In this document: piece after piece, positions 9,921 through 32,400 of the stretch
How positions within the stretch are numbered: the first letter of the stretch is position 1
Layout: each line of letters begins with the position of its first letter
NCBI RefSeq assembly: GCF_011174775.1
Contig: NZ_JAANHS010000021.1
Span: forward strand, 1-33,535
Source: Rhodobacter calidifons
GTDB taxonomy: Bacteria; Pseudomonadota; Alphaproteobacteria; Rhodobacterales; Rhodobacteraceae
DNA length: 33,535 nt
Direction of reading: 5' to 3'
Notes under the pieces: model-generated
Databases searched by the model: none
Seen by the model: only the letters and a program-made list of their open reading frames with translations
What the model was told of the DNA's origin: nothing
Made by a program: the position numbers and the translations under genes

Positions 9921-9954
9921 GGCTGCCCGCGATCTAGCGGGCAGCCTTTTCTCT
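9921..9954 (+). terminator. Rho-independent terminator after rhodopsin gene
   Basis: GGCTGCCCGC (9921-9930) and GCGGGCAGCC (9937-9946) form a perfect 10-bp stem with a 6-nt loop, followed directly by TTTTCTCT. It begins 7 bases after the stop codon and separates the rhodopsin message from crtE. Confidence 0.92.
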
Positions 9955-9986
9955 CCAACATCTTCAGCTGTTGACGGGAGTTGGTC

Positions 9987-13169: not shown

Positions 13170-14265
13170 CGTCGATATCGCCATCCTTGGTGGCGGCTGC
13201 GCGGGTCTGAGCCTCGCGGTTCGACTTGCGAGAGTCGGGCGTGATCTGTGTGTGATCGAGCCGCGAACAAGCTACAGCGACGATCGCGCGTGGAGCTTTT
13301 GGCGCACCGCTCCAGATCCATTCGAGGATTGTGTGCGCGCATCCTGGGCGCATTGGGATGTCAGCGGACCGGGCGGCACGGTGCGGCGCGGTTCATCCCG
13401 GATGCAATACCAGAATGTTGCCGCGGGTCCATTTTATGATCGGGCGCAATCTGTAATTGCTGACAATCCAACGGCAGCACTGTCGCTCGGAACTTCTGCA
13501 AGCAGCATCCGTCGATTGGCCAGTGGTTGGCAGATCGAAACGGACGCGGGCACACTCACGGCAAACCATGTGGTCGACACCCGACCGCCAAGACGTGCTC
13601 CAAGCTATGGCCAGTTCTTCCTTGGATGGGAAATTCGCACGGAACGGGCGGTTTTCGATCCCGATCGCGTGCATCTCATGCAGTTTCGCAAGGCGCGCAG
13701 CCGCGGCGTCGATTTCGTCTACACACTGCCGTTCGCCCGGGATCGTGCTCTTGTCGAGGTGACGTCCTTCGCGCCGGAAAACCCTGGGCCAGACGTTTTC
13801 AAAGCCTGGCTCGATGCCGAAATCGCAGCCCTGGACCCGGGGCGTTTCGAGGTGCTGCGCGAGGAGGCTGGTGCGCTTCCAATGCATGTCGGATTTGCCG
13901 ATCCACGCGAGTTGGGTGTGATCGGCATGGGGCTGAGCGGAGGTGCCGCGCGCCCCTCCACCGGCTATGCGTTCACGCGTATTCAGGCACAGGCCGACCA
14001 TGTGTTCCATGCCTTGCAGCGCGGAACGTCGCCGCACCCACGGCTGGACGGCTCCGCCACCCGTTTCATGGACCGCGTGTTCTTGCAGGTTCTGCAAACA
14101 ATGCCGGAACGCGGTCCGGCATTGTTCGAGACGCTGTTTCGCAACGCGCCGCCCGACCGGCTGGAACGGTTTCTTTCGGGCTCGACACGGGCGGTCGACA
14201 GATTGTCCGTCATGAGATCCTTGCCGACTTTGCCATTTCTTCGGGCAGCGCTGGTTCCAGCATGA
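13156..14265 (+). CDS. crtY: Lycopene beta-cyclase (CrtY type)
   Basis: A 369-aa flavoprotein that closes both ends of lycopene to give beta-carotene. The N-terminal VDIAILGGGCAGLSLAVRL is the FAD dinucleotide motif, and YSDDRAWSFW at about 40-49 and VVDTRPP near 138-144 are CrtY blocks. GMGLSGGAARPSTGYAF around 256-272 is the C-terminal signature. AGGA seven bases before the ATG at 13156 supports the start inside crtB. It shares ATGA with blh. Beta-carotene is the substrate of the next enzyme. Confidence 0.93.
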   Translation: MPRPDVDIAILGGGCAGLSLAVRLARVGRDLCVIEPRTSYSDDRAWSFWRTAPDPFEDCVRASWAHWDVSGPGGTVRRGSSRMQYQNVAAGPFYDRAQSVIADNPTAALSLGTSASSIRRLASGWQIETDAGTLTANHVVDTRPPRRAPSYGQFFLGWEIRTERAVFDPDRVHLMQFRKARSRGVDFVYTLPFARDRALVEVTSFAPENPGPDVFKAWLDAEIAALDPGRFEVLREEAGALPMHVGFADPRELGVIGMGLSGGAARPSTGYAFTRIQAQADHVFHALQRGTSPHPRLDGSATRFMDRVFLQVLQTMPERGPALFETLFRNAPPDRLERFLSGSTRAVDRLSVMRSLPTLPFLRAALVPA

Positions 14266-17370: not shown

Positions 17371-17754
17371 GTAGGAGAAATAGAACAACGGAGCGTGAAA
17401 TCCATCATTCACCGTTGTCATCTTTCAACGCTGGAGAAAGATTGGTTTGGCGTTCTCTGGGCGATCTGACTTCTGTTTGACCACACAGGCCGGCTCGTGG
17501 ACGGAACTATCGGTGGTTGGGATGTGCTGATCTTCAGCAGGTTTTCCAATCCAAGGCGCGCATGTCCCTCGCCGTGGTGTCGATTGACAACCCTGCCCCT
17601 CTTGACGCATGTCTACATCATCGCAGAGTTGCGCCCGGAGAGAAATCTCGCGGGCGCTTTTTAGTTTGTGGCGTTGGGACGGCGCGCAGCAGGCCAGCCA
17701 GGAAGAGCTGCTGTCCTTTGGTTGAAGCGGCGCTGATCCTGACAACGGCTACCC
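17371..17754. other. Host/prophage boundary region
   Basis: No supported gene is seen in these bases; frames on both strands look like chance. The stretch contains an orphan terminator-like hairpin (17631-17664) and TTGACA/TTGACG hexamers at about 17584 and 17602. Base composition rises sharply in GC on its right side, so the prophage edge is probably close by. No integrase, tRNA or attachment repeat could be identified. Confidence 0.35.
17631..17664 (+). terminator. Orphan rho-independent terminator
   Basis: GCGCCCG (17631-17637) pairs with CGGGCGC (17651-17657), with inner GAGA/TCTC, then TTTTTAG. It is oriented for plus-strand transcription, yet no plus-strand protein gene ends just before it. 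It could end a small RNA. Confidence 0.7.
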
Positions 17755-18432
17755 TCAAATCTCCCGCGCGAACCAGCGGATGCGGCCGATGATGCGGATC
17801 TCTTCGGCTGTGCGTTCATACTCGGGATAGAGCTTGTTGTCCGAAATCACCCGCACGGCGGGCGGGTCGCTGTTCGGGATATGCTCGAGCCGCTTGGCGA
17901 CCAGCCCCATCCCATCGTCGAGCACGAAGATGCCGGGTGGGTTGGGCAGCTGGCGCGTTATGTCGACCAGCACCGCGTCGCCGCCAAGCAGGGTCGGTGC
18001 CATGCTGTCGCCTTCGACGTGCATGATCCTGAGCTGCGCGGGGCTGGCTTTCAGCTTGTGGCGGATCCACGACTGGCGGAAGTGGTAGGCGCGGCCGGGC
18101 GTATCGCCATCCTCGGTCACCACCGCGCCGCCCCCCATGGCGGGGCGAGGCGCGGCATGGGCAATCGCCACGAAGGCATCGTCGGGGTTTTCGACGAAGG
18201 GGGAGGGGCCTTCGACCTCGCCGATACCGTGGATCAGCCAGTCGCGATCCACCTTCAGCACCCGGGCAATATCAGCAAGCCGGTCGATGCCGGGGCGCGA
18301 GGATCGCCCGCGCAGGATGTCATAGACGAAGGAGCGGTTGACCCCTGCCATTTCTGCGACATGGGCCGGTGCCAGGCCAAGCTGATCTGAGCGGGCCCGC
18401 AGACGGTCGGCCAAGGTGTGGTTCTCTCTCAT
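17755..18432 (-). CDS. Phage repressor, XRE HTH plus S24 peptidase domain
   Basis: A 225-aa CI/LexA-like repressor. The N-terminal helix-turn-helix (LADRLRARSDQLGLAPAHVAEMAGVNRSFVYDILRG, residues 7-42) binds operators. The C-terminal S24 domain carries Ser143 in HVEGDSMAPTL and Lys180 in GLVAKRLE, the dyad for RecA-stimulated self-cleavage after DNA damage. It should keep the prophage silent and be inactivated in the SOS response. The start at 18432 has GGGGAC upstream. It is transcribed away from the early genes, across a region with 10-bp tandem repeats likely to be its operator. Confidence 0.93.
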   Translation of the reverse strand: MRENHTLADRLRARSDQLGLAPAHVAEMAGVNRSFVYDILRGRSSRPGIDRLADIARVLKVDRDWLIHGIGEVEGPSPFVENPDDAFVAIAHAAPRPAMGGGAVVTEDGDTPGRAYHFRQSWIRHKLKASPAQLRIMHVEGDSMAPTLLGGDAVLVDITRQLPNPPGIFVLDDGMGLVAKRLEHIPNSDPPAVRVISDNKLYPEYERTAEEIRIIGRIRWFAREI

Positions 18433-18451
18433 GTTGTCCCCAGCGCCATGT

Positions 18452-18486
18452 GGATAAGATAGGATAAGACAGGATTGAGTTGGGAT
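18452..18486. promoter_or_regulatory. Tandem 10-bp repeats, likely repressor operator
   Basis: GGATAAGATA (18452), GGATAAGACA (18462), GGATTGAGTT (18472) and GGGATCG (18482) follow each other at exactly 10-base steps between the divergent repressor and early gene. One repeat per DNA turn puts all copies on the same face, as expected for cooperative binding. On the minus strand TATCTT or TATCCT within the repeats could serve as -10 elements. Confidence 0.55.
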
Positions 18487-18540
18487 CGTCAAGCGGCTAG
18501 AACAAAAGCCAAACACTTTGCATCGGAATCGGGGGCCAGG

Positions 18541-19224
18541 ATGGAGATCGAGAAGGCATATTTCACCCTGGCGGAGGTGCTTGACCGCTGGTCATTGCCC
18601 GAGGCCGACGTCGCCTATCTGGCCGAGAATGACCAGCTGCGACTGTCGATCCGGATCCTCAACCTGCCGATCGAGTTCGGTGATTTCGAGGAAACGGACG
18701 ACGGCAGATGCTACTCGATCCCCTGTGAACGGTCCTCGTTCAACGGGCTTCTCGATCTGCATGTCCAGGATGTCTTCCAGCTTTTCCGTATCGGCGAGGT
18801 CAGCGTTACCCGGTTCCGGACCGCAAAGGCGGACTACGCCTGCTTCTACGGATCGCGCGAAAGCCTGACAATCCGCAAGCCAGATTTGATGCTAAGGCGC
18901 GAAGAACGCGACCGTTTCGAGGCGGCGACAGGCTTCGGCGGTGCCTCGGGCATGAAGCTAGCGGGCGGATTTCACGCCTCTGCCGACTATCAGAATGTCC
19001 GCTGCCATGGCCGGGAGTTCCGGCTGGGTCCGATCCAGGCACAGGTCGTGCGGATCCTGCATGCGGCGGCCAAGCAGGGCGATCCGTGGCAGAGCGGCAA
19101 GGCGGTGCTTTCGCAGGCGGGGTCGCGCAGCCTCAAGATGGCCGACGTCTTCAAGTCCAAGAAGGACTGGCCGCTGCTCATCGAGTCGAACGGCCGTGGG
19201 GCCTATCGCCTCGCGGGCCTCTGA
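18541..19224 (+). CDS. Phage early protein of unknown function, possible C-terminal winged helix
   Basis: A 227-aa protein not assigned to a family. Residues 1-130 form an acidic, mixed alpha/beta region (KAYFTLAEVLDRWSLPEADVAYLAENDQ at the start resembles a small HTH). The last 60 residues (REFRLGPIQAQVVRILHAAAKQGDPW...ADVFKSKKDWPLLI...GRGAYRL) look like a winged-helix domain with a beta-hairpin wing. Position opposite the repressor is the cro/early regulator position. The ATG at 18541 is the family-plausible start, with a weak AGG before it; an in-frame start at 18475 would run into the operator repeats. A DNA-binding regulator is the best guess. Confidence 0.6.
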   Translation: MEIEKAYFTLAEVLDRWSLPEADVAYLAENDQLRLSIRILNLPIEFGDFEETDDGRCYSIPCERSSFNGLLDLHVQDVFQLFRIGEVSVTRFRTAKADYACFYGSRESLTIRKPDLMLRREERDRFEAATGFGGASGMKLAGGFHASADYQNVRCHGREFRLGPIQAQVVRILHAAAKQGDPWQSGKAVLSQAGSRSLKMADVFKSKKDWPLLIESNGRGAYRLAGL

Positions 19225-19262
19225 GTCGGACCCTCCGCGCGTCCCAGTTTGCTCCCCGCTGT

Positions 19263-19378
19263 GGGATGCACCGGGGGATGGAGGGGGATGGCGATCCCAC
19301 CGTCATACGTTTCATCCCATGATTGAAACGGTCCGGCTGATCCCCCGCCATATCCCACTCTGATCCCGACGACATCCC
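19263..19378. repeat. Phased array of nine GGGAT motifs
   Basis: GGGAT starts at 19263, 19275 and 19285 on the plus strand. Its complement ATCCC starts at 19294, 19314, 19340, 19352, 19363 and 19374. Many steps are 10-12 bases. Three direct copies followed by six inverted copies in 116 bases is far above chance. It may be a second operator or a replication-origin iteron set; the core resembles the repeats at 18452-18486. Confidence 0.55.
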
Positions 19379-19426
19379 CGCATCGCGCCGTGCATCTTCC
19401 TCCCAACGACACACCGGGAGAGGACG

Positions 19427-19630
19427 ATGCAGACCAGAACCTGCCTGAACCAGACCGAACTTGCCGCGCGCTGGAGCATTTCGGCGCGCACCCTTGAACG
19501 CTGGCGCTGGACCGGCGAGGGCCCGGCCTTCCTGAAGATCGGGGGCCGTGTGGTCTATCGGCTCGAGGATGTGCTGGCCTATGACCAGGCCCGCCAGCGG
19601 CGCAGCACTGCGGATCGGGGCGCGGCATGA
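19427..19630 (+). CDS. Small HTH protein, excisionase/MerR-like
   Basis: A 67-aa DNA-binding protein with a single winged helix-turn-helix: NQTELAARWSISARTLERWRWTGEGPAFLKIGG at residues 8-40 and VVYRLEDVLAYD after it. This is the helix_turn_helix_17 pattern seen in phage excisionases and small regulators. GGGAGAGGA just before the ATG is a strong ribosome binding site. It follows the GGGAT array directly, so the array may be its promoter or binding region. ATGA overlap couples it to the next gene. No integrase partner is present in the window. Confidence 0.8.
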   Translation: MQTRTCLNQTELAARWSISARTLERWRWTGEGPAFLKIGGRVVYRLEDVLAYDQARQRRSTADRGAA

Positions 19631-19992
19631 TGGCCCGGCATTCCACCATCCGTGCCACCGGCGTCGTGTCGATCTTCGGCGCAGCCGGACCTGCCCTTGA
19701 TGAGGTCGGGCTTTCGGCCTGGATCGCGCAGGCCGCACCCGGCGAGACGCTGGTCTACCATCGCGGCTTTCTCGCGGTCGATGCGACCTCGGTGATCTCG
19801 AAACTGCCCGCTGAACAGCAGCGCACCCTTCGCCTGGTGGCATCGGCCGCGTTGCGCGCCGCCGAGCAGGGCCTCGTCCACCTCGTCCAGGCCCGGATCG
19901 GCCCCGACCAGTTCGCCTACATCGCCATCGCCCGGACCAGACCGCGCCAGGCCGGTCCCTCCCTTTCGGTGCGCCTCCTCGAGGCCGCCTGA
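19627..19992 (+). CDS. Phage hypothetical protein
   Basis: A 121-aa protein, translationally coupled to the HTH gene by a 4-bp overlap. It has a first half with strands and turns (WIAQAAPGETLVYHRGFLAVD), then a helix (PAEQQRTLRLVASAALRAAEQGLVHLVQARI) and a C-terminal strand FAYIAIARTR. It resembles small proteins of Rhodobacterales prophages in this position, but no function is known to me. No membrane segment or metal-binding motif is seen. Confidence 0.6.
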   Translation: MMARHSTIRATGVVSIFGAAGPALDEVGLSAWIAQAAPGETLVYHRGFLAVDATSVISKLPAEQQRTLRLVASAALRAAEQGLVHLVQARIGPDQFAYIAIARTRPRQAGPSLSVRLLEAA

Positions 19993-20019
19993 CCCCATTC
20001 CCCTATCACGGAGACCCCC

Positions 20020-20508
20020 ATGACGTTCCCGCAGAACACCCCCAGCATCGATCAGCTGATCAACCTGCCCGCTGGCGAGATCGCCCAGCTGCCTGTCGAG
20101 CTTCTCGCTGCCCTGCAGCGCGAGATCGACGCCGCGGCGAAGCAGATGAAGGCCGTCACTGCGCGCTTTTCCACCGCGCTTGAGGTCCGCTATGCCACCC
20201 GCGCCGCCGAGGCCCGCCGCGCCTGCGGCAAGGACAACGGAACCGTGCGCCTGGTCGATGGTGATTTCACCGTGGTCGCGGACCTCCCGAAGCGGGTCGA
20301 GTGGGACCAGGCCAAGCTCGCCGCCATGGTCGAGCGCATCCGCGCCGCGGGCGAGGATCCGGCCGAATACGTCGAGATCAGCTTCAAGGTGCCCGAGCGC
20401 GCCTACTCCGCCTGGCCCGAGGCGATCCGACAGGGCTTCGAGCCCGCCCGCACCGTCAAGACCGGCACGCTGAAGATCGACCTGCTGCCGCAGGAGGATC
20501 GCGCGTGA
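20020..20508 (+). CDS. Phage hypothetical protein before AAA ATPase
   Basis: A 162-aa protein. Residues 20-60 are helical and charged (LLAALQREIDAAAKQMKAVTARFSTALE) and may form a coiled coil. The middle has DFTVVADLPKRVEWDQAKLAAMVERI, and the end PARTVKTGTLKIDLLPQEDRA. Phages with Sak4-like ATPases often have such a gene directly upstream; the function is unknown to me. The end overlaps the ATPase start (GTGA) and encodes its AGGAGG ribosome binding site. Confidence 0.6.
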   Translation: MTFPQNTPSIDQLINLPAGEIAQLPVELLAALQREIDAAAKQMKAVTARFSTALEVRYATRAAEARRACGKDNGTVRLVDGDFTVVADLPKRVEWDQAKLAAMVERIRAAGEDPAEYVEISFKVPERAYSAWPEAIRQGFEPARTVKTGTLKIDLLPQEDRA

Positions 20509-21374
20509 GCCTGCCCATCATCACCGCCGACCAGCGGCTGGCCGAGCCGCGCGGCATCAAGGGTTGCATCTTTGGAAAGTCCGGCATCGGCAAGACCAGC
20601 CTTCTCTGGACGCTCGACCCCGCCCGTACGCTGTTCATCGACCTCGAGGCGGGCGATCTGGCCATCGAGGGCTGGCCCGACGACAGCATCCGGCCGCGCA
20701 CATGGGCCGAGTGCCGGGATTTTGCGGTCTTCATCGGCGGACCGAACCCGGCCTTGCGCGACGAGCAGCCCTACAGCCCCGCGCATGATGCCGCCATCTG
20801 CCAGAAGTTCGGCGATCCCGCCGCGCTCGATCGCTACGACACGATTTTCGTCGACTCGATCACCGTGGCGGGGCGGCTCTGCTTCCAATGGTGCAAGGGC
20901 CAGCCGGAAGCGGTGTCGGAGAAGACCGGCAAGCCTGACGTCCGCGGCGCCTACGGGCTGCACGGGCGCGAGATGATCGCATGGCTGACCCACCTCCAGC
21001 ACACCCGGGGGCGCAACGTCTGGTTCGTGGGGATCCTCGACGAGAAGTTCGACGACTTCAACCGGCGCATCTTCCAGCCACAGATCGATGGATCGAAGAC
21101 CGGGCTCGAGCTGCCGGGGATCGTCGACGAGGTGATCACCATGGCCGAGTTGAAGGCTGATGGTGGTGATCCCTACCGCGCCTTCGTCTGCCACACCATC
21201 AACCCTTGGGGTTTCCCGGCCAAGGACCGCTCCGGTCGTCTTGGCCCGGTGGAAGAGCCGCATCTTGGCCGCCTGATGGACAAGATCCGCGCCCTCGGCA
21301 CGCCCGCGCCAAGGCGCCTGACCTTCACGCCGCCCGCTGAAGGCGCGGCTGATCACCCCCATCCGCAATCCTGA
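20505..21374 (+). CDS. Phage AAA ATPase (AAA_24, Sak4-like recombination protein)
   Basis: A 289-aa RecA-fold ATPase. Walker A is GKSGIGKTS (residues 24-32), the first acidic strand LFIDLEAGD (43-51) and Walker B DTIFVDSIT (112-120). This is the phage nucleotide-binding family PF13479, related to Sak4 annealases that work with a phage single-strand-binding protein in recombination. The start is GTG at 20505, with a perfect AGGAGG seven bases upstream, overlapping the previous stop. The protein next downstream is a candidate SSB and a helicase follows, so these three form the replication/recombination set. Confidence 0.8.
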   Translation: MSLPIITADQRLAEPRGIKGCIFGKSGIGKTSLLWTLDPARTLFIDLEAGDLAIEGWPDDSIRPRTWAECRDFAVFIGGPNPALRDEQPYSPAHDAAICQKFGDPAALDRYDTIFVDSITVAGRLCFQWCKGQPEAVSEKTGKPDVRGAYGLHGREMIAWLTHLQHTRGRNVWFVGILDEKFDDFNRRIFQPQIDGSKTGLELPGIVDEVITMAELKADGGDPYRAFVCHTINPWGFPAKDRSGRLGPVEEPHLGRLMDKIRALGTPAPRRLTFTPPAEGAADHPHPQS

Positions 21375-21393
21375 CCCGCAAAGGAGACACCCC

Positions 21394-21993
21394 ATGGGTT
21401 CCTGGAACGACTTCAACGACGCCCAGTCCAACACAAACCTCATCCCCAAGGGCACGCTGGCCAAGGTCCGCCTGACCATCCGGCCGGGCGGCTTCGACGA
21501 TCCCTCGCAAGGCTGGACCGGGGGCTATGCCACCCGTGGCTCGACTGGCGCGGTGTACCTGAACGGCGAGTTCACCGTCACCGAGGGCCAGTATGCCCGG
21601 CGCAAGATCTTCACGCTGATCGGGCTCTACAGCCCGAAGGGCCCGGATTGGGCTAACATGGGCCGCAGCATGATCCGCGGCATGTTGAACTCGGCGCGCG
21701 GGATTTCCGACAAGGACCAGTCGCCGCAGGCGCAGTCTGCGCGCCGGATCAACGGGCTCGGGGATCTCGACGGGATCGAGTTCCTGGCTCGGATCGACGT
21801 CGGCACCGATGCGACCGGCGACGACAAGAACGAAATCCGCAGCGCGGTAACGCCGGACCATCGGGATTATGCCCAGAACATGGGGTTGGCGGTGCAACCC
21901 GGCTATCACCCGCCCGCGCAACCCGCGCCGCAGCAGTCGGTCCAGCAGCAGCCCGCGTCGCCGGTGCCCGGTCGTCCCTCTTGGGCGCAGTGA
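21394..21993 (+). CDS. Possible phage single-strand-DNA-binding protein (DUF669-like)
   Basis: A 199-aa protein with a beta-rich first half (NLIPKGTLAKVRLTIRPGGFDD, AVYLNGEFTVTEGQYARRKIF). It resembles the DUF669-type proteins that accompany phage AAA ATPases and helicases and are thought to act like single-strand-binding proteins. The last 50 residues are low-complexity Pro/Gln (QPAPQQSVQQQ), a flexible tail as in SSBs, ending in SWAQ. AAGGAGA before the ATG supports the start. The assignment rests on context as much as on sequence. Confidence 0.5.
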   Translation: MGSWNDFNDAQSNTNLIPKGTLAKVRLTIRPGGFDDPSQGWTGGYATRGSTGAVYLNGEFTVTEGQYARRKIFTLIGLYSPKGPDWANMGRSMIRGMLNSARGISDKDQSPQAQSARRINGLGDLDGIEFLARIDVGTDATGDDKNEIRSAVTPDHRDYAQNMGLAVQPGYHPPAQPAPQQSVQQQPASPVPGRPSWAQ

Positions 21994-22004
21994 GGGCCTG
22001 ATCC

Positions 22005-23030
22005 ATGCGCCTTCGCCCCCGTCAGAGCCTGTTCGTGGAGCGCAGCCTCGCTGCGCTCTGCGATCACGGCAACACCCTCAGCATCGCGTCGACGGGCTTC
22101 GGAAAGACCATCGCCCTGTCGGCGGTTGTCGCCAAGTCCCTTGAGGGCAATGATGCCAAGGCATGCGTCTTTGCGCATCGCGACGAGTTGACCGCGCAAA
22201 ACCGGGCGAAGTTCGGCCGGGTCGCACCTGAAATCACCACCTCCGTCGTCGATGCCGAGGCCAAGAGCTGGGCCGGACGGGCGACCTTCGCCATGGTGCC
22301 GACCCTCTCGCGGCCGGCCAATCTGGCGGCGATGCCCGCGCTCGACCTTCTGGTCATCGACGAGGCGCATCACGCAGTGGCCGACAGCTATCGCCGGATC
22401 ATCGACCATGTCCGGGGCGCCAATCCTGCCTGCCGGATCTTCGGCGTCACGGCGACGCCCAACCGGGGCGACCGCAAGGGGCTGCGCGAGATCTTCGACA
22501 ATGTCGGCGACCAGGTGAAGCTGGGCGAACTGATCGCCTCGGGCCACCTCGTCCCGTCACGCACCTTCGTCATCGACGTGGGCGTGCAGGACCAGCTGCG
22601 TGCCGTGCGCAAGAGCGCTGCCGACTACGACATGACCGAAGTCGCGCAGATCATGAACCGCGCGCCGGTGACCGACGAAGTGGTCCGCCATTGGCAGGAC
22701 AAGGCGAGCGAGCGGCCGACCGTGGTCTTCTGTTCCACGGTCGCCCATGCCGAAAACGTCGCGGCCGCCTTCAACGCCGCAGGGGTTGCCGACACCTCGC
22801 TGATCACGCAGGCGATCGACGGCACACCTTGCGAGCTGGTCTTTGCCTGGAGCCTCGGCGCCAACGCCAGCTTCACCTCCACGGCGCACGCCGTGTACCT
22901 GCCGCGCCCTCGCATCGAGATCCCGGGCCCGCAGGGCATCCAGGCCACCTTCGACTGGCAGGCGGCCAAGGCCACCAGCCCCGCCCGGATGTGCACCGCC
23001 GTCCTCGTCAACACCGTCGCCACCTATTGA
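22005..23030 (+). CDS. Chimeric ORF: truncated DEAD/DEAH helicase fused to tail tube C-terminus
   Basis: A 341-aa open frame made of two unrelated parts. Residues 1 to about 263 are a superfamily 2 helicase: Walker A ASTGFGKT (28-35), DEAH box (119-122), TAT (149-151), and the start of the second RecA domain with VVFCSTVAHAENVAAAF (240-256). Motifs V and VI are missing. From about residue 264 (near base 22,791) the sequence becomes the end of a siphophage/GTA major tail tube protein: AWSLGANASFTSTAHAVYLPRP, PGPQGIQATFDWQAAKATSP, LVNTVATY. Tail assembly genes follow directly. An in-frame deletion between replication and tail modules is the simplest reading. The product probably has neither helicase nor tube function. 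Confidence 0.85.
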   Translation: MRLRPRQSLFVERSLAALCDHGNTLSIASTGFGKTIALSAVVAKSLEGNDAKACVFAHRDELTAQNRAKFGRVAPEITTSVVDAEAKSWAGRATFAMVPTLSRPANLAAMPALDLLVIDEAHHAVADSYRRIIDHVRGANPACRIFGVTATPNRGDRKGLREIFDNVGDQVKLGELIASGHLVPSRTFVIDVGVQDQLRAVRKSAADYDMTEVAQIMNRAPVTDEVVRHWQDKASERPTVVFCSTVAHAENVAAAFNAAGVADTSLITQAIDGTPCELVFAWSLGANASFTSTAHAVYLPRPRIEIPGPQGIQATFDWQAAKATSPARMCTAVLVNTVATY

Positions 23031-23041
23031 GAAGGCCTGCC

Positions 23042-23706
23042 ATGCTGACCCTCGACCTTTCGAACGCGCCGCAATGGTGCGACCTCATCCCCGGCGTGCG
23101 TGTCCGGCTTCGTCCGCTGACTACGGCGCTGATGGTGTCCGCCCGCGGCGATCCCGCGATTGCCGATCTGCCCGAGGGGGCCGCGACCGAGGAAGCCGCG
23201 CTCGCCATGGCCAAGGCGCTGGCGCGGCGCGCGATCATCGGCTGGGAAGGGATCGGCGATGCCGCTGGCCATCCCATCGATCCAAGGCCCGAGGCCATCG
23301 ACGCGCTTCTCGACATCTGGCCTGCCTTCGAGGCGTTCCAGACCCTCTACGTCGCCAAGGCGCTCCTGCTGGAAGCGGAAAAAAAAGTCTCTGCGCCCTT
23401 GCCGACTGGTCGCTCAGTGGGGGCGAAGGCTACTGCGCGGCCTGTGCAGGACCCTGTCCCGACTGCCCCGCACGGCTGAACCAGCCGCTGACGCTTGAGG
23501 GCGCGCAGGTCTGGGACCTGGCGCAGCGCCGTGGCGGGCAGATGCGCGTCCTCCCCGGCGCGGTGATCGGCTGGGACATGAGCGCAGCGCTGGCCTTGGG
23601 CTCGGCCCTCGGCATCTGCCCGCCCGCCATCGCCGAACTGCTGCCGGCCCTCGAGGCGGTGATGGTCCGCCGCGTCAACGAGCAGATCGCGGCCAACCGC
23701 GACTGA
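23042..23706 (+). CDS. Tail assembly chaperone with -1 frameshift (G/GT-type)
   Basis: Frame 0 runs from 23042 to the stop at 23479 (145 aa; MLTLDLSNAPQWCDLIPG...KALLLEAEKK...). At the A run 23379-23386 the codons GAA-AAA-AAA-GTC offer the heptamer A-AAA-AAA. A -1 slip continues as SLCALADWSLSGGEGYCAACAGPCPDC and on to the stop at 23706, giving a 221-aa protein. This matches tail assembly chaperones (lambda G/GT; the adjacent g10 region in GTAs), where the rare extended form loads the tape measure protein. The extension carries four or more Cys that could bind zinc. The downstream frame has no early start codon, which supports frameshifting. Sequencing error in the A8 run is the alternative. 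Confidence 0.7.
23379..23387 (+). other. Slippery A8-G tract
   Basis: Eight A residues followed by G inside the chaperone gene. In frame 0 they read (G)AA-AAA-AAA-G, an ideal X-XXY-YYZ heptamer for -1 slippage. The only comparably long A run in the surrounding GC-rich prophage sequence is this one. Confidence 0.65.
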
Positions 23707-23728
23707 CCCAATCTGGAGCCCCGATCCC

Positions 23729-26200
23729 ATGGCCGAAAAACGCGTCTCCGTCCGGCTCGCCGCCGTGGGCGGCCGCCAGGTGCGCGCCGAACTGGAAGGG
23801 ATCGGCGAGGCCGGGGCGCGCGGGTTCGGCCGTCTCTCCACCGAGATGGAACTGGCCAACACGCGCCTTGCTGGATTTGCCCGCAAGGCAGGGATCGCGC
23901 TGGCAGCCGTCACCGCAGCAGCCGCGGCGGCTGGGGTGGCAATGGTCCGATCGGGGCTCGCCAACATCGACGCGCAGGCGAAGCTTGCGCAGTCGATGCG
24001 CACCACCGTCGAAAGCATCCAGACCCTGACCTGGGCCGGGGAACTGGCCGGGGTCTCGATGGGCCAGATCGAGCAGGCAACGCAGCGCCTGACCAATCGC
24101 CTGTCGGAAGCGGCCAGTGGTTCCGGCGCGGCGGTCGGCGCGCTGCGGCGCCTGAACCTGACGGCGGCCGAGCTGCAGGCCCTGCCGCTCGACCAGCGTA
24201 TCGTGGCGATCCAGGACGCGCTGACCCGCTATGTCCCCGAGGCCGAACGTGCGGCGGTCGCTTCGGACCTCTTCGGCGACCGGGCGGCGCTTGCCTTCCT
24301 GCGGATCGACAGCGCGACCCTGCGGGATGCGGCGCGCGACGTGCAGGATTTCGGGGTGGCGATCAGCGCGGCGGATGCGGCGCAGATCGAGCGGACGGGC
24401 GATGCCATCGCGCGGCTGAGCCTGATCTGGACCGGCCTCGTCAACCGCCTGACCGTCGCCGTCGCCCCTGCGCTGGAAACGGTGGCCACCAGGCTCGCCG
24501 ACATGGCGCGGGCTACGGGGCCCATCGGGCAGGCGATCACCATGCTCTTCGAGAACCTCGGCCGCCTCGCCACCTATACGATCACCTTCGCCACCGTCAT
24601 GGCCGGGCGCTGGGTGGCCGGGATGGCGGCCGCCGCCCTCTCCGTGCGCGGCCTCGCCACGGCGCTCATGTTCCTGCGCGGGGCGCTCATCCGCACGGGC
24701 ATCGGGGCGCTGATCGTCGGTGCGGGCGAGCTGGTCTACCAGTTCTCGGAACTGGTGGCCCGAGTGGGCGGGGTCGGCGAGGCGTTCCGCCTGCTGGGCG
24801 ATCTGGCCCGCGAGGTCTGGTCCCGCATCGGCCTGTCGCTGGACGCGGCCCTCGCCCGCATGGCGGCCGGATGGGAAGGGCTGAAGGCGACGGGTCTTTC
24901 GGCGCTCGAAGGCACGATTGCAGGCGTCGTCAGCTTCGGCGACCGGACGGCGGCAATCTTCCAAGGAGCATACGACGCGGCGGTGGCGATCTGGGGCAGC
25001 CTGCCCGGCGCCATCGCTGACTTCGCTTTTCAAGCCGCAAACGGGCTGATCTCGGGCGTCGAGGCAATGCTGAACGGCGTCGGCACCCGGATCAACAGCT
25101 TCATCGAGACGCTGAACGCGGCGCTGTCTCTGCTGCCGGAATGGGCCATCGGCGAGGGCGGTGTCCGGATCGGCATCCTCGATCCGGTGGAACTGGGCCG
25201 CATCGGCAATCCCTTCGAGGGGGCCGCGACCGCAGCCGGTGCAGCTGCCGCGGACGCCTTCTCGGCCGCGCTGGCCAAGACCTATCTCGAACCGCCTGAC
25301 CTCGGCCTCGGGGCCATGGCCGACGATGCCCGCGCCCGGGCTGATGGATATCGCGAGGCCGCGCGGATGCTTGCCGATGCCGCCGGTCGGCCGCTGGCCA
25401 GCTGGCAGGCGCTGAAGGATGCTGTGAGCGGCACGGGGACGGAAGCCGAGACAGCGCTGGCGGATGCGGCTGGCGCGGCCGATGCCCTCACGTCCGAGCT
25501 GAACGATACCGCCACCGCCGCCGATACCGCGGGCGGGGCCGCGCGCGACGCGGGAGCAGCAGCGGCCGAGGGCGCGGACACCGCGCTGACCGGCTGGCAG
25601 GCCGTCACCGCCGCCCTCGCCGACTACGCAGCCAAGGCGCGCGATATCGGCAGCACGTTGGTCGGGGCCTTCACCTCGGCCGAGAACGCCATCGGTGACT
25701 TCGTGAAGACCGGCAAGCTCGACTTCCGCGATCTGGTCACGTCGATGATCGCCGACCTCGCCAAGCTCGCCGTCCGCCGCTTCATCCTCGGCCCCATTGC
25801 GAACGCGCTGGCTGGCGCGATTGGCGGCGCGGGCGTTCGCGGGGCTTACGCGGCCCCACTGGGGCCACGGTCCCCGCTCACCTTCGCGAACATCCTGCAT
25901 GCGGGCGGCATGGTTGGTGCACAAGGTCCCGGCCGAATGGTCCCGGCCTTGGCCTTCGCGGGCGCCCCCCGAATGCACAGCGGCGGCTGGGCCGGGCTGC
26001 GGCCCGACGAGGTACCCGCGATCCTGCAACGCGGCGAGCGGGTGCTCTCCCGGCGCGAGGCGGCAGGGTACGGCCAAGCGGGCGCCTCCACCGTCAATGT
26101 CACGATCAACGCCCGCGACGCCGAGAGCTTTCGCCAGTCGCGCACGCAGGTTGCCAGCGACATCGCCCGCGCCGTGTCGCTGGGTCGGCGCGGCATGTGA
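23729..26200 (+). CDS. Phage tail tape measure protein
   Basis: An 823-aa Ala-rich protein that sets tail length and passes through the tail tube during DNA entry. The start (KRVSVRLAAVGGRQVRAELEGIGEAGARGFGRL) is the usual TMP beginning, followed by a hydrophobic helix near 52-70. Further hydrophobic segments near 285-345 are probable membrane-active parts. The C-terminal third has coiled Ala/Asp/Thr repeats and ends with the lambda-type C-terminal domain (GSTLVGAFTSAENAIGDFVKTGKLDFRDLVTSMIADLAK and IANALAG). Length is within the range for siphophages. The frame is intact. Confidence 0.92.
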   Translation: MAEKRVSVRLAAVGGRQVRAELEGIGEAGARGFGRLSTEMELANTRLAGFARKAGIALAAVTAAAAAAGVAMVRSGLANIDAQAKLAQSMRTTVESIQTLTWAGELAGVSMGQIEQATQRLTNRLSEAASGSGAAVGALRRLNLTAAELQALPLDQRIVAIQDALTRYVPEAERAAVASDLFGDRAALAFLRIDSATLRDAARDVQDFGVAISAADAAQIERTGDAIARLSLIWTGLVNRLTVAVAPALETVATRLADMARATGPIGQAITMLFENLGRLATYTITFATVMAGRWVAGMAAAALSVRGLATALMFLRGALIRTGIGALIVGAGELVYQFSELVARVGGVGEAFRLLGDLAREVWSRIGLSLDAALARMAAGWEGLKATGLSALEGTIAGVVSFGDRTAAIFQGAYDAAVAIWGSLPGAIADFAFQAANGLISGVEAMLNGVGTRINSFIETLNAALSLLPEWAIGEGGVRIGILDPVELGRIGNPFEGAATAAGAAAADAFSAALAKTYLEPPDLGLGAMADDARARADGYREAARMLADAAGRPLASWQALKDAVSGTGTEAETALADAAGAADALTSELNDTATAADTAGGAARDAGAAAAEGADTALTGWQAVTAALADYAAKARDIGSTLVGAFTSAENAIGDFVKTGKLDFRDLVTSMIADLAKLAVRRFILGPIANALAGAIGGAGVRGAYAAPLGPRSPLTFANILHAGGMVGAQGPGRMVPALAFAGAPRMHSGGWAGLRPDEVPAILQRGERVLSRREAAGYGQAGASTVNVTINARDAESFRQSRTQVASDIARAVSLGRRGM

Positions 26201-26209
26201 GGACCAGCC

Positions 26210-26836
26210 ATGGCATTTCACGAGGTTCGGTTTCCGGACAACATCAGCCGTGGCGCGCGCGGCGGCCCGGAGCGGCGCACGCAGATCGTCGAACTAACGA
26301 GTGGTGCCGAAGAGCGAAATGCGAGCTGGGCAAACAGCCGCCGCCGCTACGATGTCGCCTACGGCATCCGCCGCGCCGACGATCTGGCGGCGGTGGTCGC
26401 CTTCTTCGAGGCCCGCAATGGCCGCCTCCACGGCTTCCGCTTCAAGGATTGGGCCGACTTCAAATCCTGCCTGCCATCACAGACACCGGGCCCGACCAAC
26501 CAGCCCATCGGCACCGGCGATGGGGCGGCCACGCTGTTTCATCTGACCAAGCGCTACACCTCCGGCGCGCAGTCCTGGAGCCGCACCATCGCCAAGCCCG
26601 TCGCCGGGACCGTCACCATCGCCCTGAACGGCACGCCGCAGGCCACAGGCTGGTCGGTTTCGACCGCGACCGGCCTCGTCACCTTCGCCACCGCCCCCGC
26701 CGCGGGCGTGGCGATCACTGCGGGCTTCGAATTCGACGTTCCCGTCCGCTTCGACACCGACATGCTCGACGTCACCCTCGACCTCGAGCGGCTGGGGTCG
26801 ATCACATCCATCCCGCTCTTGGAGATCCGGCGATGA
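26210..26836 (+). CDS. DUF2460/TIGR02217 distal tail protein (GTA gp12-like)
   Basis: A 208-aa protein. The N-terminus MAFHEVRFPDNISRGARGGPERRT and the block RRRYDVAYGIRRADDLAAVVAFFEARNGRLHGFRFKDWAD are the signature of the DUF2460 family, the distal tail/hub component in GTAs and related phages. The end LERLGSITSIPLLEIRR is also typical. It lies directly behind the tape measure gene with 9 bases between, and its stop overlaps the holin start (ATGA). Confidence 0.9.
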   Translation: MAFHEVRFPDNISRGARGGPERRTQIVELTSGAEERNASWANSRRRYDVAYGIRRADDLAAVVAFFEARNGRLHGFRFKDWADFKSCLPSQTPGPTNQPIGTGDGAATLFHLTKRYTSGAQSWSRTIAKPVAGTVTIALNGTPQATGWSVSTATGLVTFATAPAAGVAITAGFEFDVPVRFDTDMLDVTLDLERLGSITSIPLLEIRR

Positions 26837-27182
26837 ACGAAGAAACCGGCTTCATCGCCGCGGCATTGCGCGATCTGGCGACCTCCACCGCTGTCATCCT
26901 TGCCGCCTGGGGCGCTCTGGGCGGGGCCACCAACGCCCTGACCACACGGATGCGGCTGCGCAGCGCGCTGCGCCACATCTGCTCGGCGGGCTGATCGCGG
27001 CTGGGATGGGCAGCCTGTCGATGGCGCTCGTCACCCGTTGGCTCGGCCTGCCGCCCGAAGCCATTCCAGCCGGAGGTGCTGCGGGTTCGGCCGCCTATCT
27101 GGTCGGCGTCTTCGGCCCCGCCTTCATCGAGGTCGTCCTCGCCCGGCTGCGCAGCGGCAAGGGGGGCACCCCCGATGCATGA
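26833..27182 (+). pseudogene. Phage holin-like gene with a one-base frameshift
   Basis: Frame 0 starts at 26833 (MNEETGFIAAALRDLATSTAVILAAWGALGGATNALTTR) and stops at 26994. From about 26,980 a -1 frame continues as LLGGLIAAGMGSLSMALVTRW...GAAGSAAYLVGVFGPAFIEVVLARLRSG to a stop at 27182. Joined, they make a protein of about 116 aa with three hydrophobic segments, fitting a phage holin. The simplest cause is loss of one C in CATC-CTGCTC near 26,978. No slippery heptamer is present, so programmed frameshifting is unlikely. Position before a small membrane protein and endolysin supports the holin reading. Sequencing error is possible. Confidence 0.65.
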
Positions 27183-27309
27183 ACTTCTCCGCCTTGCGCG
27201 CGCCATCCGCTGCGACGCAGCCGATCCCGAACAAGCCTTCAGCCACCGCCTGCGCATCGGCCTTCTGGTCGCCGCCCTGATCCTCATCCTTTCCTCCATC
27301 TTCGGGTGA
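27175..27309 (+). CDS. Small phage membrane protein
   Basis: A 44-aa protein with a charged first half (MHELLRLARAIRCDAADPEQAF) and a C-terminal hydrophobic helix LRIGLLVAALILILSSIFG. It overlaps the end of the holin-like frame by eight bases and lies 4 bases before the endolysin. It may be a holin partner or spanin-like peptide; no lipobox is seen. Confidence 0.55.
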   Translation: MHELLRLARAIRCDAADPEQAFSHRLRIGLLVAALILILSSIFG

Positions 27310-27313
27310 TCCC

Positions 27314-27964
27314 ATGCACATGACCGACCGGGGCCTGCTGGCCCTGATCCGGCACGAAGGCGTCGTGCCCGGACCCTATCTGGATGTGAAGGACATCTGG
27401 ACCTTCGGCATCGGCCACACCGCCGCCGCCGGTCCGCCCGATCCGGCGCAGATGCCGCGCGGCATGCCTGCCGATCTCGATGCCGGCATCCGCGAGGCCT
27501 TCCGGCTCTTCCGCACCGACCTCGCCGCCTACGAGTCCGAGGTGCTGCGCGCCGTAAAAGTACCGCTCGAACCCCATGAGTTCGATGCGCTGGTTTCCTT
27601 CCACTACAACACAGGCGGCATCGCCAAGGCCGCCCTGACACGCCACCTGAACGTAGGCAACCGCGCAGCCGCCGCGCAGGGGTTCATGGGCTGGCTCCGA
27701 CCGGCCGCAATCCGCACCCGGCGCGAGGCTGAACGCGATCTGTTCCGCGACGGCCGCTACCCGACAGGCACCATCCCGGTCTGGGCGGTCGACCGCAACG
27801 GCAGGGTGGATTTCTTGCGACCGCTCCGTCGCCTCAGCGAGAGCGAGGCGCTGGCTTTGCTCCGCCCGACCGGCACGCCGACGCCGCCACCAGCCCAACC
27901 CACGACCACGCCCAGCTGGTGGCAGCGACTTGCCAACCTCTTCACGCGAAAGGAAACGACATGA
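27314..27964 (+). CDS. Endolysin, GH24 muramidase
   Basis: A 216-aa T4-lysozyme-type muramidase that cuts peptidoglycan glycan strands at host lysis. The catalytic triad follows the E-8aa-D-5aa-T rule: Glu15 (RHEG), Asp24 (YLDVKD), Thr30 (WTFGIGHT). FDALVSFHYNTGG near 90-102 and RTRREAERDLFRDG near 134-147 are further GH24 blocks. The C-terminal 60 residues form a Pro/Thr-rich linker and a Trp-rich basic tail (TPSWWQRLANLFTRKE). No signal-anchor helix is evident, so export depends on a holin. A second ATG lies two codons in. Confidence 0.9.
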   Translation: MHMTDRGLLALIRHEGVVPGPYLDVKDIWTFGIGHTAAAGPPDPAQMPRGMPADLDAGIREAFRLFRTDLAAYESEVLRAVKVPLEPHEFDALVSFHYNTGGIAKAALTRHLNVGNRAAAAQGFMGWLRPAAIRTRREAERDLFRDGRYPTGTIPVWAVDRNGRVDFLRPLRRLSESEALALLRPTGTPTPPPAQPTTTPSWWQRLANLFTRKETT

Positions 27965-28170
27965 ACTGGACCTTCGCACGCGGCCTCGTCTGTCTCGCCT
28001 GCCTCGTTGCCTCCGGCCTCGCCATGGCCGGGCTTGCGGATTTCGATCTGGTGACGGGCAACTTCGATCTGCGCCCGTTCAACCTTTATGCTCTGACCGG
28101 CGCGGCGGGCGGTGTCGTGTCCTCGGCGCTGGCCTCGGTCGCCCTGTGGCGCGGCTGGGGGCGGAAGTGA
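27961..28170 (+). CDS. Small two-helix phage membrane protein
   Basis: A 69-aa protein with hydrophobic segments at about residues 8-26 (LVCLACLVASGLAMAGLAD) and 42-62 (TGAAGGVVSSALASVALW). The start shares ATGA with the endolysin stop and the end overlaps the DUF2163 GTG start. It could be an antiholin or a second holin; I do not recognise a family. The first helix could also act as a signal peptide. Confidence 0.6.
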   Translation: MNWTFARGLVCLACLVASGLAMAGLADFDLVTGNFDLRPFNLYALTGAAGGVVSSALASVALWRGWGRK

Positions 28171-29051
28171 AGGCGCTCCCGCCCACACTTCAGGCGCATC
28201 TCGACGAGGGCACCACCACTCTGGCCTGGTGCTGGCGCATCACTCGCGCCGATGGTGTGACCTTCGGCTTCACCGACCACGACCGGACGCTCAACTTCGA
28301 CGGAACCGAGTTCGAACCCGAAAGCGGTCTGACCGCCTCCGAGGTCCGGTCGGGGTCGGACCTGTCCGTCGATGCGCAGGATGCCCAAGGCGTGCTGTCC
28401 TCCGACCGGATCACCGAGACCGACATCCTCGACGGCAGATGGGACAATGCGGCGGTCGAAGTTTGGCGGGTGAACTGGTCGGCCCCAGCGCAGCGTGTGC
28501 TCCTTCGGCGCGGGGCCATCGGCCAGATCCGGCGAGGGCGGCTGGCATTCGTCGCCGAGGTGCGGTCGCTTGCCCATATCCTCGGCCAGACCGTGGGGCG
28601 GACGTTCCAGGCCAGCTGCGACGCCGCGCTGGGCGATGCGCGCTGCGGCGTGAACCTCGAGGCCCCGGCCTTCAAGGGGACCGGCGCGGTGATCGATGTG
28701 CTGCGCGACCGTGCCTTCACGGCCGCCGGCCTCGGCACCTTCTCCGCCGGCTGGTTTGCCTTCGGGCTGGTGGAATGGTCGACCGGCGCGAATGCAGGGC
28801 GGCGGGTCGAGGTGCTGTCGCATGACCTTGTCGACGGCATTGCTATCCTGACTCTGCTGGAAGCCCCAGTGCGCCCGATCACGGCGTCGGATACCTTCGT
28901 GGTCCGCGCGGGCTGCGACAAGCGTATCGCGACCTGCGTTGCGAAGTTCGCCAATGTCGCGAACTTCCGAGGCTTCCCGCACATCCCGGGGCAGGACGCG
29001 GTCCTTCGCTATGCGACGAAGGATGGCGGACACGAGGGGGCGGTGCTGTGA
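28167..29051 (+). CDS. DUF2163 tail hub protein (GTA gp13-like)
   Basis: A 294-aa protein started at GTG 28167, which overlaps the previous stop. The blocks TTLAWCWRITRADGVTFGFTDHDR near 15-38 and GLTASEVRSGSDLSVDAQDAQGVL near 52-75 are DUF2163. CDAALGDARCGVNL and CDKRIATC...F-NVANFRGFPHIPGQD carry the conserved Cys of the C-terminal domain. In the Rhodobacter GTA this protein forms part of the baseplate hub. Its end overlaps the NlpC/P60 gene by four bases. Confidence 0.92.
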   Translation: MKALPPTLQAHLDEGTTTLAWCWRITRADGVTFGFTDHDRTLNFDGTEFEPESGLTASEVRSGSDLSVDAQDAQGVLSSDRITETDILDGRWDNAAVEVWRVNWSAPAQRVLLRRGAIGQIRRGRLAFVAEVRSLAHILGQTVGRTFQASCDAALGDARCGVNLEAPAFKGTGAVIDVLRDRAFTAAGLGTFSAGWFAFGLVEWSTGANAGRRVEVLSHDLVDGIAILTLLEAPVRPITASDTFVVRAGCDKRIATCVAKFANVANFRGFPHIPGQDAVLRYATKDGGHEGAVL

Positions 29052-29482
29052 AAGCTGCCGATCCCGTCCACGTCATCGCCATCGCGCGGTCCTGGTTGGG
29101 CACGCCCTATCACGACCAGGCAAGCCTCCGCGGTGTCGGCTGCGACTGCCTCGGTCTGGCGCGCGGCGTCTGGCGTGAAGTGGTCGGCCCCGAGCCATTC
29201 CCTATCCCGCCCTACAGCCGTGACTGGGGCGAGACCGGCCCGCGCGAGGTTCTGGCGGATGGGGCGCGGGCGATGATGCCGGAACTTGATCCATCCGAGG
29301 CTGGCCCCGGCACGTTGATCCTCTTCCGCATGATGCCCCGCGCCATCGCCAAGCATGTGGGCATCCTCACCGGCCCCGACACCTTCCTCCACGCCTATGA
29401 ACGTCTCGGCGTGATCGAGGAACCGCTGACCCCCGCGTGGGCGCGCAAGATCGCCTTCGCCTTTCTGTTTCCCCAACGCTGA
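29048..29482 (+). CDS. NlpC/P60 tail-tip peptidase (GTA gp14-like)
   Basis: A 144-aa NlpC/P60 cysteine peptidase that helps the tail tip open the cell-wall peptide network. The catalytic Cys34 is in RGVGCDCLGLARGVW, His102 is in AKHVGILTG, and FLHAYE supplies a second His (115). The start is GTG at 29048, inside the DUF2163 stop. The length is normal for the GTA/phage form. The frame is intact. Confidence 0.92.
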   Translation: MKAADPVHVIAIARSWLGTPYHDQASLRGVGCDCLGLARGVWREVVGPEPFPIPPYSRDWGETGPREVLADGARAMMPELDPSEAGPGTLILFRMMPRAIAKHVGILTGPDTFLHAYERLGVIEEPLTPAWARKIAFAFLFPQR

Positions 29483-29491
29483 GAGAACCCC

Positions 29492-32400
29492 ATGGCGACC
29501 CTCGTCCTCGGTGCCGTCGGTTCCGCCATCGGTGGGGCTTTCGGCGGCGCCATCCTCGGCTTTTCCGGGGCCGCCATCGGTGGCTTCATCGGGTCGACCA
29601 TCGGTTCGGTCGTCGACAGCTGGATCGTTTCGTCGCTGGCGCCCGCGCAGAAGATCGAGGGCCAGCGCCTCGACAGCTTGCGCATCACGTCGGCGACTGA
29701 GGGGGCGATCATCCCGCGCCTCTACGGGCGCATGCGCATCGGCGGCAACATCATCTGGGCCACGGATTTCCGCGAGGAGACGAAGACCACGACGCAGGGC
29801 GGCGGCAAGGGTGGTGGTGGCGGCAAGGTCAAGACGACCGAGTATCTCTACTATGCGTCCTTCGCGGTCGCCTTGTGCGAAGGCCCGATCACCGGCATCG
29901 GCCGCATCTGGGCCGACGGCAAGCCCCTCGACATGACCGGCATCACCTGGCGCTGGTATCGAGGCAATGAGACCCAGACGCCTGACCCGTTCATCGCGGC
30001 GAAGATGGGCGCAGCCAACACCCCCGCCTATCGCGGCACGGCCTATGTCGTCTTCGAGGAACTGCCGCTCTCGACCTACGGCAACCGCCTGCCGCAACTG
30101 AGCTTTGAGGTGTTCCGGCCGCTTGCCGACCCCGACACTGCCGAGGGGCTGGTGAAGGCCGTGACCATGATCCCGGCCTCGGGGGAGTTCACCTATGCCA
30201 CCGAAGCTGTGCGCAAGACCGTGGGCGCCACGACCACGGTGTTCGGCCAGACCACTGGCGGAACTTCCTCGGCCGAGAACCTGAACGCGCTGCCCGACGA
30301 GGCCGACATCGTCGTGGCGCTGGACCGCCTACAAGCCATGGCCCCGGCCGTCGAGAGTGTCAGTCTGGTCGTCGCCTGGTTCGGCAATGACCTGCGCGCG
30401 GGCAACTGCACGATCAAGCCGGGCGTCGAGGTCGCAACCAAGGTCACCAGCCCGAAGATCTGGACGGTCAATGGGGTGTCCCGCGTTGCGGCCCATCTCG
30501 TCAGCCGCGACGTCGAAGATCGGCCGGTCTATGGCGGAACGCCTGCCGACTTTGCGGTTGTGCAGGCGATCCGAGAGATGAAGGCGCGCGGGCTGCGCGT
30601 CACCTTCTATCCCTTCCTGCTGATGGACGTCCCGCCCGGGAACAGCCTGCCGAACCCCTATTCGAACAGTGCCGCGACGCCCGGTCAGCCGTCATTCCCC
30701 TGGCGCGGGCGTATCACCTGCTCCCCGGCGGCAGGCTATGCCGGGAGCGCAGACAAGACCGCTGCCGCGGCGACGCAGGTGTCCAACTTCTTCGGCGCCG
30801 CAAACCCGGCGCAGTTTGCGATCTCGGGCGACACCGTTACATGGACCGGTCCCTCGGGCGACTGGGGCCTGCGCCGCATGATCCTGCACTACGCCCACCT
30901 TTGTGCGGTGGCAGGTGGGGTTGATGCCTTCCTGATCGGTTCGGAGATGCGCGGGCTGACCACGATCCGGTCGAGCGCGAACACCTATCCGACCGTCACC
31001 GCCTTCAAGGCGCTGGCGGCCGACGTAAAGGCAATCCTCGGGCCGGGCACCAGTGTCGGTTACGCCTCTGACTGGTCGGAATACTCCGGTCACCAGCCCG
31101 GCGACGGCAGCGGCGACGTCCATTTCCACCTCGACCCGCTCTGGTCGGATGCCAACATCGATTTCATCGGCATCGACAACTACATGCCGCTCTCCGACTG
31201 GCGCGACGGCTTCGATCATGCCGATGCCCTCGAAGGCTGGCCCGCGATCCATGACCGGGGCTATCTGCAGGCGAACATCGCGGGCGGCGAGGGCTTCGAC
31301 TGGTTCTATGCCTCCGAGGCCGACCGGTCGGCGCAGATCCGGACGCCCATCGCGGATGGCAGCGCGGGCAAGCCCTGGGTGTTCCGCTACAAGGACCTGC
31401 GCGCCTGGTGGTCCGAGCCGCATTTCAACCGTCCGGGTGGGGTGGAGAGCGGCACGCCGACGGAGTGGGTGCCGCAGTCGAAACCCGTCTGGTTCACCGA
31501 ACTGGGCTGTCCGGCCATCGACCGGGGGACCAACCAGCCGAACGTCTTCTTCGACCCGAAGTCCTCGGAGAGCTTCACCCCGTATTTCTCGCGCGGCTGG
31601 CGCGACGACGCAATCCAGCGGGCCTATCTTGAGGCGACGTATCTCTGGTGGGGTCAGGGCACGAACAACCCGACGTCCGCGGTCTATGGCGGCCGGATGG
31701 TGCATGTTCCGGAATGCGCCGCCTGGACCTGGGACGCGCGACCCTATCCTTTCTTTCCGGAACTGACCGGGATCTGGACGGACGGGCCGAACTGGCGGCT
31801 CGGCCACTGGCTGACCGGGCGGCTCGGGGCTGTGTCACTGGCGGCCCTCGTGCGCCATCTCTGCCTGCGCGCCGGGCTGGCGGAGAGCCTCATCGACGTT
31901 TCCGGCCTCTGGGGCGCGGTCGAGGGCTATGTGATCGGCGCTCTCGAAAGCCCTCGCGCGTCGATTTCCACGCTGGCCCGACATTTCGGCTTCGATGCGA
32001 TCGAAACGGAGGGGGTGATCCGCTTTGTCATGCGCGGTCGGGCGTCCGTCACCACGCTGGCCATCGACGATCTGGTTGCCAGCCGCGAGGGCGAGGCCTT
32101 CGAACTGACCCGCGGCCAGGAGACCGAACTGCCCCAGGCGCTGAAGTGGCAGGTCGCGCGCACCGACGAGGACTATGACGCGGCCCTCGTCGAGGCACGC
32201 AGCATCACCGTCGACACCACCCGCATTGCGTCCGAGTCCTTCCCCACGGCGATCCCGCCGAGGGTGAGGCGGGTGCGCCACGGGTTCGAGCACCCGCCGA
32301 ACGAACGCCGCTGCCGCCGCACTGATGGAGGCGTGGATCGGCCGGGAAAGCGCCACCTTCCGCCTGCCGCCCTCGCGGCTGGCGCTCGACCCCGCCGACG

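Follow-up and report, generated by a model that had tools for sequence, protein, structure and literature searches.

A helicase-tail tube chimeric frame in a prophage of Rhodobacter calidifons and its probable origin by deletion

One of the questions raised by the genome of Rhodobacter calidifons is why a phage helicase should pass, within one reading frame, into the end of a tail tube protein. What has been lost between the two, how did their ends come to meet, and is the resulting protein of any use to the prophage that carries it? These questions are asked here of a 33,535-nucleotide stretch of DNA, referred to at its full length as the window, which is contig C13 of a genome (G000) assembled into 59 contigs and which ends, with the contig, at position 33535. 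The best account of the chimera is that it represents ordinary prophage decay, with nothing that points to a working fusion protein.

Two partial genes in one frame

The stretch from 22005 to 23030 (plus strand) is a single open reading frame of 341 codons without an internal stop, and two profiles divide it at residues 261/262, much as a preliminary description of the DNA had proposed in calling it an in-frame fusion of a helicase to a tail tube protein. In hmmscan searches the phrog_16 DNA helicase profile matches residues 1-261 (E 2.2e-48, profile positions 271-517 of 986) and the phrog_290 minor tail protein profile matches residues 262-340 (E 5.5e-10, positions 256-335 of 411). Pfam ResIII is found at residues 1-154 (E 8e-19), and Phage_tube_2 (PF18906) at residues 262-320 with a score of 19.6 bits, below the 27-bit cut-off, just the end of the domain (profile positions 215-266 of 266) being present; the tail piece searched alone scores 23.3 bits. 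The complete Phage_tube_2 domain, of about 266 positions, is not contained in the chimera. With regard to the helicase, the first RecA-like domain of an SF2 enzyme is there, with TGFGKT at residue 30, DEAH at 119 and TATPNR at 149, which we take to be the Walker A, DEAH and TATP motifs; helicase motifs I, II and III and the start of domain 2 had been correctly described as retained, within residues 1-261. The second RecA-like domain, with motifs V and VI, is missing, and no Helicase_C match is listed for the 341-residue protein in the Pfam search.

From profiles and alignment, the frame is made up of the first 261 codons of an SF2-type phage helicase (22005-22787, plus strand), reaching from the first RecA-like domain into the beginning of the second, and of the last 80 codons and stop of a tail tube gene (22788-23030, plus strand), equivalent to codons 233-312 of that gene in the related G033 prophage introduced below. 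Separate searches of the two halves gave helicase relatives for the one and tail tube records for the other, as predicted. Among the matches listed, the helicase part (residues 1-262) is 95% identical in the six nearest loci, and the tube part is at most 95% identical in relatives. As a lone query the tail piece matched 15 phage records, 11 of them from Rhodobacter phages in which the match is annotated as a tail tube protein (61-65% identity). The chimera is without 232 of the 312 tube residues and most of helicase domain 2; it presumably has neither helicase nor tube activity, and an automatic label of helicase or of tail protein would be wrong for 22005-23030.

The point at which one gene gives way to the other was placed by DNA alignment to three related prophages, those of Pseudotabrizicola algicola ETT8 (G033), Tabrizicola rongguiensis J26 (G037) and Cereibacter ovatus JA234 (G034). 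It lies at 22787/22788, 3-4 bases from the 22,791 originally suggested. The left-hand match ends at 22787 in all three, and the right-hand match begins at 22786 in G033 and G037 and at 22788 in G034, the TT of the putative deletion junction (22786-22787, plus strand) fitting both sides in the former two and the helicase side only in the latter. The bases common to both sides of the junction number 0-2, and by simple arithmetic chance suffices fairly often for two. Within 60 bases on either side, the two breakpoints share no word of more than 6 bases. Beyond the 0-2 bases at the junction, the microhomology which it had been proposed to look for did not materialise, and recombination at a repeat is rejected.

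On the early side, window 17753-22787 aligns to 9108-14158 of G033 contig C29 at 90.3% identity, and on the tail side 22786-27866 aligns to 35486-40591 of the same contig at 82.1%. The corresponding values are 91.1% and 84.7% for G037, and 89.9% and, over the first 1,150 aligned bases of the tail side, 89.8% for G034. Both flanks are collinear with, and in the same orientation as, one prophage in each of the three genomes, and the genes concerned are whole there. The early side is closer to G033 and G037 (90-91%) than is the tail side (82-85%), and the ancestor of the prophage may have been a mosaic, unlike any of the three relatives exactly. More widely, the helicase and tube halves occur as separate open frames on one strand in eight contigs from seven genomes (G006, G031, G033 twice, G034, G036, G037 and G038), lying 19.7-25.7 kb apart between matches, a count restricted to pairs whose helicase part is at least 75% identical and leaving aside those with a helicase match of about 30%.

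The missing block and related prophages in the same genome

What, then, lies between the two genes in an intact prophage? The breakpoints are separated by 21,329 (G033), 21,797 (G037) and 21,618 (G034) bases, about twice the figure of over 10 kb put forward in the preliminary description, whose proposal of a deletion is otherwise borne out by the collinearity and the clean breakpoint. In G033 the replication part of the block consists of helicase residues 262-563 (most of Helicase_C), a primase/helicase and a RuvC-like resolvase, and the block also holds a ParB-methyltransferase, a C5 methyltransferase and an HNH gene. Its head part comprises small and large terminase (GpA type), portal, protease-capsid fusion and head decoration genes, and its tail part the tail terminator and codons 1-232, three quarters, of the tube gene. 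The head genes that had been described as missing (terminase, portal and protease-capsid) do lie between the same two points in all three relatives, but the loss extends to replication genes, namely the primase/helicase and RuvC-like resolvase.

The helicase is whole, at 563 codons, in G033, G034 and G037. The G033 protein has Helicase_C at residues 232-329 (E 4.1e-15), and beyond the cut it carries NVAVLTEGWDHP, which we read as motif V, and QMVGRGLR (residue 322), presumably motif VI, in keeping with the claim that these two motifs had gone from the chimera. In G034 and G037 the helicase, primase, RuvC, both methyltransferase, terminase, portal, protease-capsid, decoration, terminator and tube genes are all without stops. 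A DprA-like gene (PF02481, E 1.5e-57) precedes the tail terminator in the G033 prophage (C29 32634-34230; locus L113 7635-9228); it matched nothing in the stretches from G034 or G037, and the gene after it has no Pfam or PHROGs match. The two are possibly a cargo or defence pair.

Related phage DNA is also present in the same genome as the chimera, on contigs C2, C9, C12, C14, C17, C20, C24, C26, C27 and C30, and these sequences suggest that several prophages of one kind reside there. On C9 the related terminase, portal, protease-capsid and terminator genes show no stop wherever they align, and C2 has head genes too, its protease-capsid match being in two pieces. The prediction that no capsids could be made is consequently sound for the prophage of the window but not for the genome, given the related head genes of C9. 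A portal search of the genome gave one match, on C4. A second copy of the missing block was considered as well: head genes are found on C9 and C2, and the replication part was not found. The C-terminal part of the helicase has its sole match in the genome on C9, at 38% identity, and the lost primase/helicase has none. The identical primase query was matched in all seven of the other genomes searched, at 73-97% identity apart from the source genome and two weak 29% matches; a stop interrupts the G011 match and one of those in G005. The first 700 or so bases of a tube gene were not found in the genome (40 of 391 candidates scored, and contigs compared), even though the prophages of C2 and C9 would each be expected to have them. 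C2 and C9 both run out where the tail terminator gene ends, C14 and C17 both begin 1.4 kb further on, and the piece between was not found in the genome; because of this gap in the assembly, absence of short pieces is weak evidence.

Two of these contigs have arrangements of their own. At 7582/7583 of C27 (L148) a tail terminator gene gives way after its first 172 bases directly to the GTA-TIM tail gene, which may represent a second internal deletion, or a join, in another related prophage. On C30 (L149) a reversed piece of the GTA-TIM gene and a head-tail gene are 3.4 kb apart; G033 shows no such order.

What remains of the prophage

The phage genes of the window are collinear with those of the relatives from about 17,583, the match to G033, G034 and G037 starting at 17580-17584, and the block, with its repressor, sits in DNA that is taken to be that of the host from translations and from the end of the match to relatives. 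In this left flank, at 9110-14265, an apparent rhodopsin gene is followed by carotenoid genes, as seen in translations only. At the left edge itself (17583-17672, plus strand), a segment conserved in four genomes shows, by eye, two TTGACA-like boxes and, after them, a hairpin and T run; it may represent an attenuator or a small RNA. A promoter and terminator scan of 17400-23800 gave no promoters and two terminator-like sites, not above shuffled sequences, and listed neither kind of site at 17583-17672.

A CI-like repressor with HTH and Peptidase_S24 domains lies at 17755-18516 (minus strand; phrog_4 E 4.1e-38, PF00717 E 7.5e-12). The other genes described here are on the plus strand. Ahead of the chimera there is a Sak4-like ssDNA annealing ATPase (20514-21374; phrog_124 E 2.1e-40, PF13479 E 4.7e-46) between two early genes of unknown function, phrog_2480 (20020-20508; E 3.1e-30) and phrog_2300 (21394-21993; E 3.1e-42). 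Behind it are a tail assembly chaperone (23042-23479; phrog_313 E 1.5e-15), a tape measure protein that is full length against G033 (23729-26200; phrog_8462 E 4.4e-202), a DUF2460 tail protein (26210-26836; PF09343 E 1.2e-91) and an endolysin of the Phage_lysozyme family (27314-27964; PF00959 E 9.9e-22). The frames of the repressor, Sak4-like gene, chaperone, tape measure, DUF2460 protein and lysozyme are open, as is that of a homologue of a 144-aa G033 tail gene (29048-29482; 87.5% identity over 144 aa), at whose place the record of Rhodobacter phage RcDormio names a peptidase. The last gene contains a second lesion. The GTA-TIM tail gene, one frame of 1323 codons in G033 and full length without stops in G034, G037 and contig C14 of the same genome, is divided between a front part (29492-32419; PF13547 E 3.6e-156), whose frame is lost near 32.3 kb, and a back part in another frame (32325-33535, by alignment to G033) that is cut by the contig end; sequencing error may be an alternative source of this split.

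In terms of capability, it had been suggested that the prophage could still make some tail and lysis proteins. The lysozyme frame and several tail frames are open, but no tail would be expected from them because most of the tube gene, the tail terminator and the GTA-TIM gene are lost or broken. With terminase, portal and capsid genes absent as well, the remnant has the character of a defective prophage, and alone it should neither replicate, package nor build a tail, to judge from its gene content. The kept repressor frame could still confer immunity. No integrase or transposase was found among the genes scanned in 17583-33535 or in G033 C29 8990-48258; a survey of Rhodobacteraceae prophages (PMC8224337) reports that 8 of 50 better-quality prophages were without integration genes.

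Origin of the chimera and comparison with known systems

How might two genes from distant parts of a phage genome have come together? The ancestor would have been a temperate phage whose tail was GTA-like and which had integrated into the genome of an alphaproteobacterium; many of the relatives are Rhodobacteraceae. Illegitimate recombination would then have linked helicase codon 261 to tail tube codon 233, removing 21-22 kb, and the gene ends would have met in frame by accident to give the 341-codon chimera. We put the probability that a single deletion of 21-22 kb within the prophage explains the chimera at about 0.92, on the basis of the established anatomy, breakpoint and absent block, the replication part of which is not found elsewhere in the assembly. 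The block was probably removed in one event rather than several, as had been proposed from the outset, and end-joining would be a mechanism consistent with the 0-2 shared bases. The deletion looks young because the remaining pieces have hardly changed, and it would be recent relative to the split from the three relatives.

Were the junction instead to join two different phages, through non-homologous recombination between prophages, this would sit well with the coexistence of several related phages in the genome and with a tail side that has diverged further from G033 and G037 than the early side has. However, in each of three genomes a single prophage has both sides in this order and orientation, and the reciprocal product was not found (40 of 212 candidates scored, together with the searches of the genome for the helicase C-part and primase), which leaves a hybrid origin quite unlikely. 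A related concern is that two prophages of a polylysogenic genome were misjoined at 22,787 during assembly, given that at least ten other contigs carry related phage DNA, several of them ending inside it, and that C27 likewise has an odd internal join. Against this, three contig-end pairs overlap by exactly 77 bases, and the end of C20 overlaps C13 from 33387 by exactly 77 bases, as expected of a k=77 de Bruijn assembly, in which a join within a contig requires reads that span it. Furthermore, the 180 bases around the junction share no word longer than 14 bases with the ten other contigs compared (C2, C9, C12 and C14 in part), the two head ends (C2 and C9) face two tail starts (C14 and C17), at one gap, leaving the C13 tail headless, and the lost primase was not found in the genome. 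The identical junction is carried by IMG/VR record L237, letter-for-letter the same as window 19427-33533, which is probably the same assembly and hence no independent proof. A misjoin is very improbable for a junction inside a contig, though one that rests on one assembly.

Could the 341-residue fusion be a selected, working protein? The frame is kept across the junction, and dN/dS against relatives is low (0.08-0.09 for the helicase half, 0.06-0.09 for the tube half). Yet a random deletion leaves the frame intact one time in three, and its openness is thus not evidence of selection. The low dN/dS mostly reflects time preceding the deletion, and on the helicase half pairs that involve the window come out, if anything, above pairs among the relatives (0.04-0.06; tube half 0.04-0.12), although these values are pairwise only, computed for both halves and for nine further genes or parts of genes, and the rise is small and without a significance test. 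A working fusion would also have to dispense with the missing parts of both proteins, and no homologue among those listed has it. In a survey of the genus, 17 of 32 genomes gave matches, the R. calidifons genome included, and residues 1-341 were found in one frame in that genome only. The best 80 of at least 488 confirmed relatives among genome contigs do not match beyond residue 285, nor do the best 80 of at least 597 among viral contigs beyond residue 286, and none of 1113 matching annotated phage records or 184 matching plasmid records covers 80% of the 341-residue query. A conserved fusion, the finding which the preliminary description had held would speak against its reading, is rejected on these listed matches, and a literature search found no report of a helicase-tail tube fusion gene at a deletion junction in a prophage. 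That the fusion was selected has, all in all, a negligible chance of being right. A different form of usefulness would attach to the remnant as a whole, its early and late genes now forming a single stretch, kept for repressor immunity, for its Sak4-like recombinase, or for helper-dependent exchange or complementation with related prophages, for which the open head-gene set of C9 would be a possible source; the odds against this are long.

An in-prophage deletion has little importance alone, gene loss being common in prophage decay, but it provides a tidy example in which three relatives allow the breakpoint to be located to within two bases and what remains is hardly changed. The nearest known systems are the G033 prophage (C29, about 8,990-48,260) and its counterparts on G037 C10 and G034 C14, which have the same gene order flanking the junction and 80-91% DNA identity to the window in long aligned pieces; they differ in that helicase, primase, head, tube and large tail genes are whole, and in having 21.3-21.8 kb more. 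RcDormio and other R. capsulatus phages have a similar late-gene order, from terminase to the GTA-TIM protein, but in the RcDormio record the tube gene is whole and no helicase of the chimera's kind is named. Mosaics formed between lambdoid phages and E. coli prophage remnants are attributed mainly to homology-driven Rad52-like recombinases by De Paepe et al. (2014, PMC3945230); such a recombinational use of the remnant is possible, given several related prophages in the genome. Incomplete prophages are described by Khan et al. (2020, PMC7744054) as preferentially losing replication, packaging and release genes. The gene loss seen here fits those cryptic or defective prophages in kind, but, unlike in that general pattern, the lysozyme gene has been kept. 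Compared with cryptic prophages generally, what sets this one apart is that the exact junction has been caught, with neighbouring genes still near their whole-phage versions.
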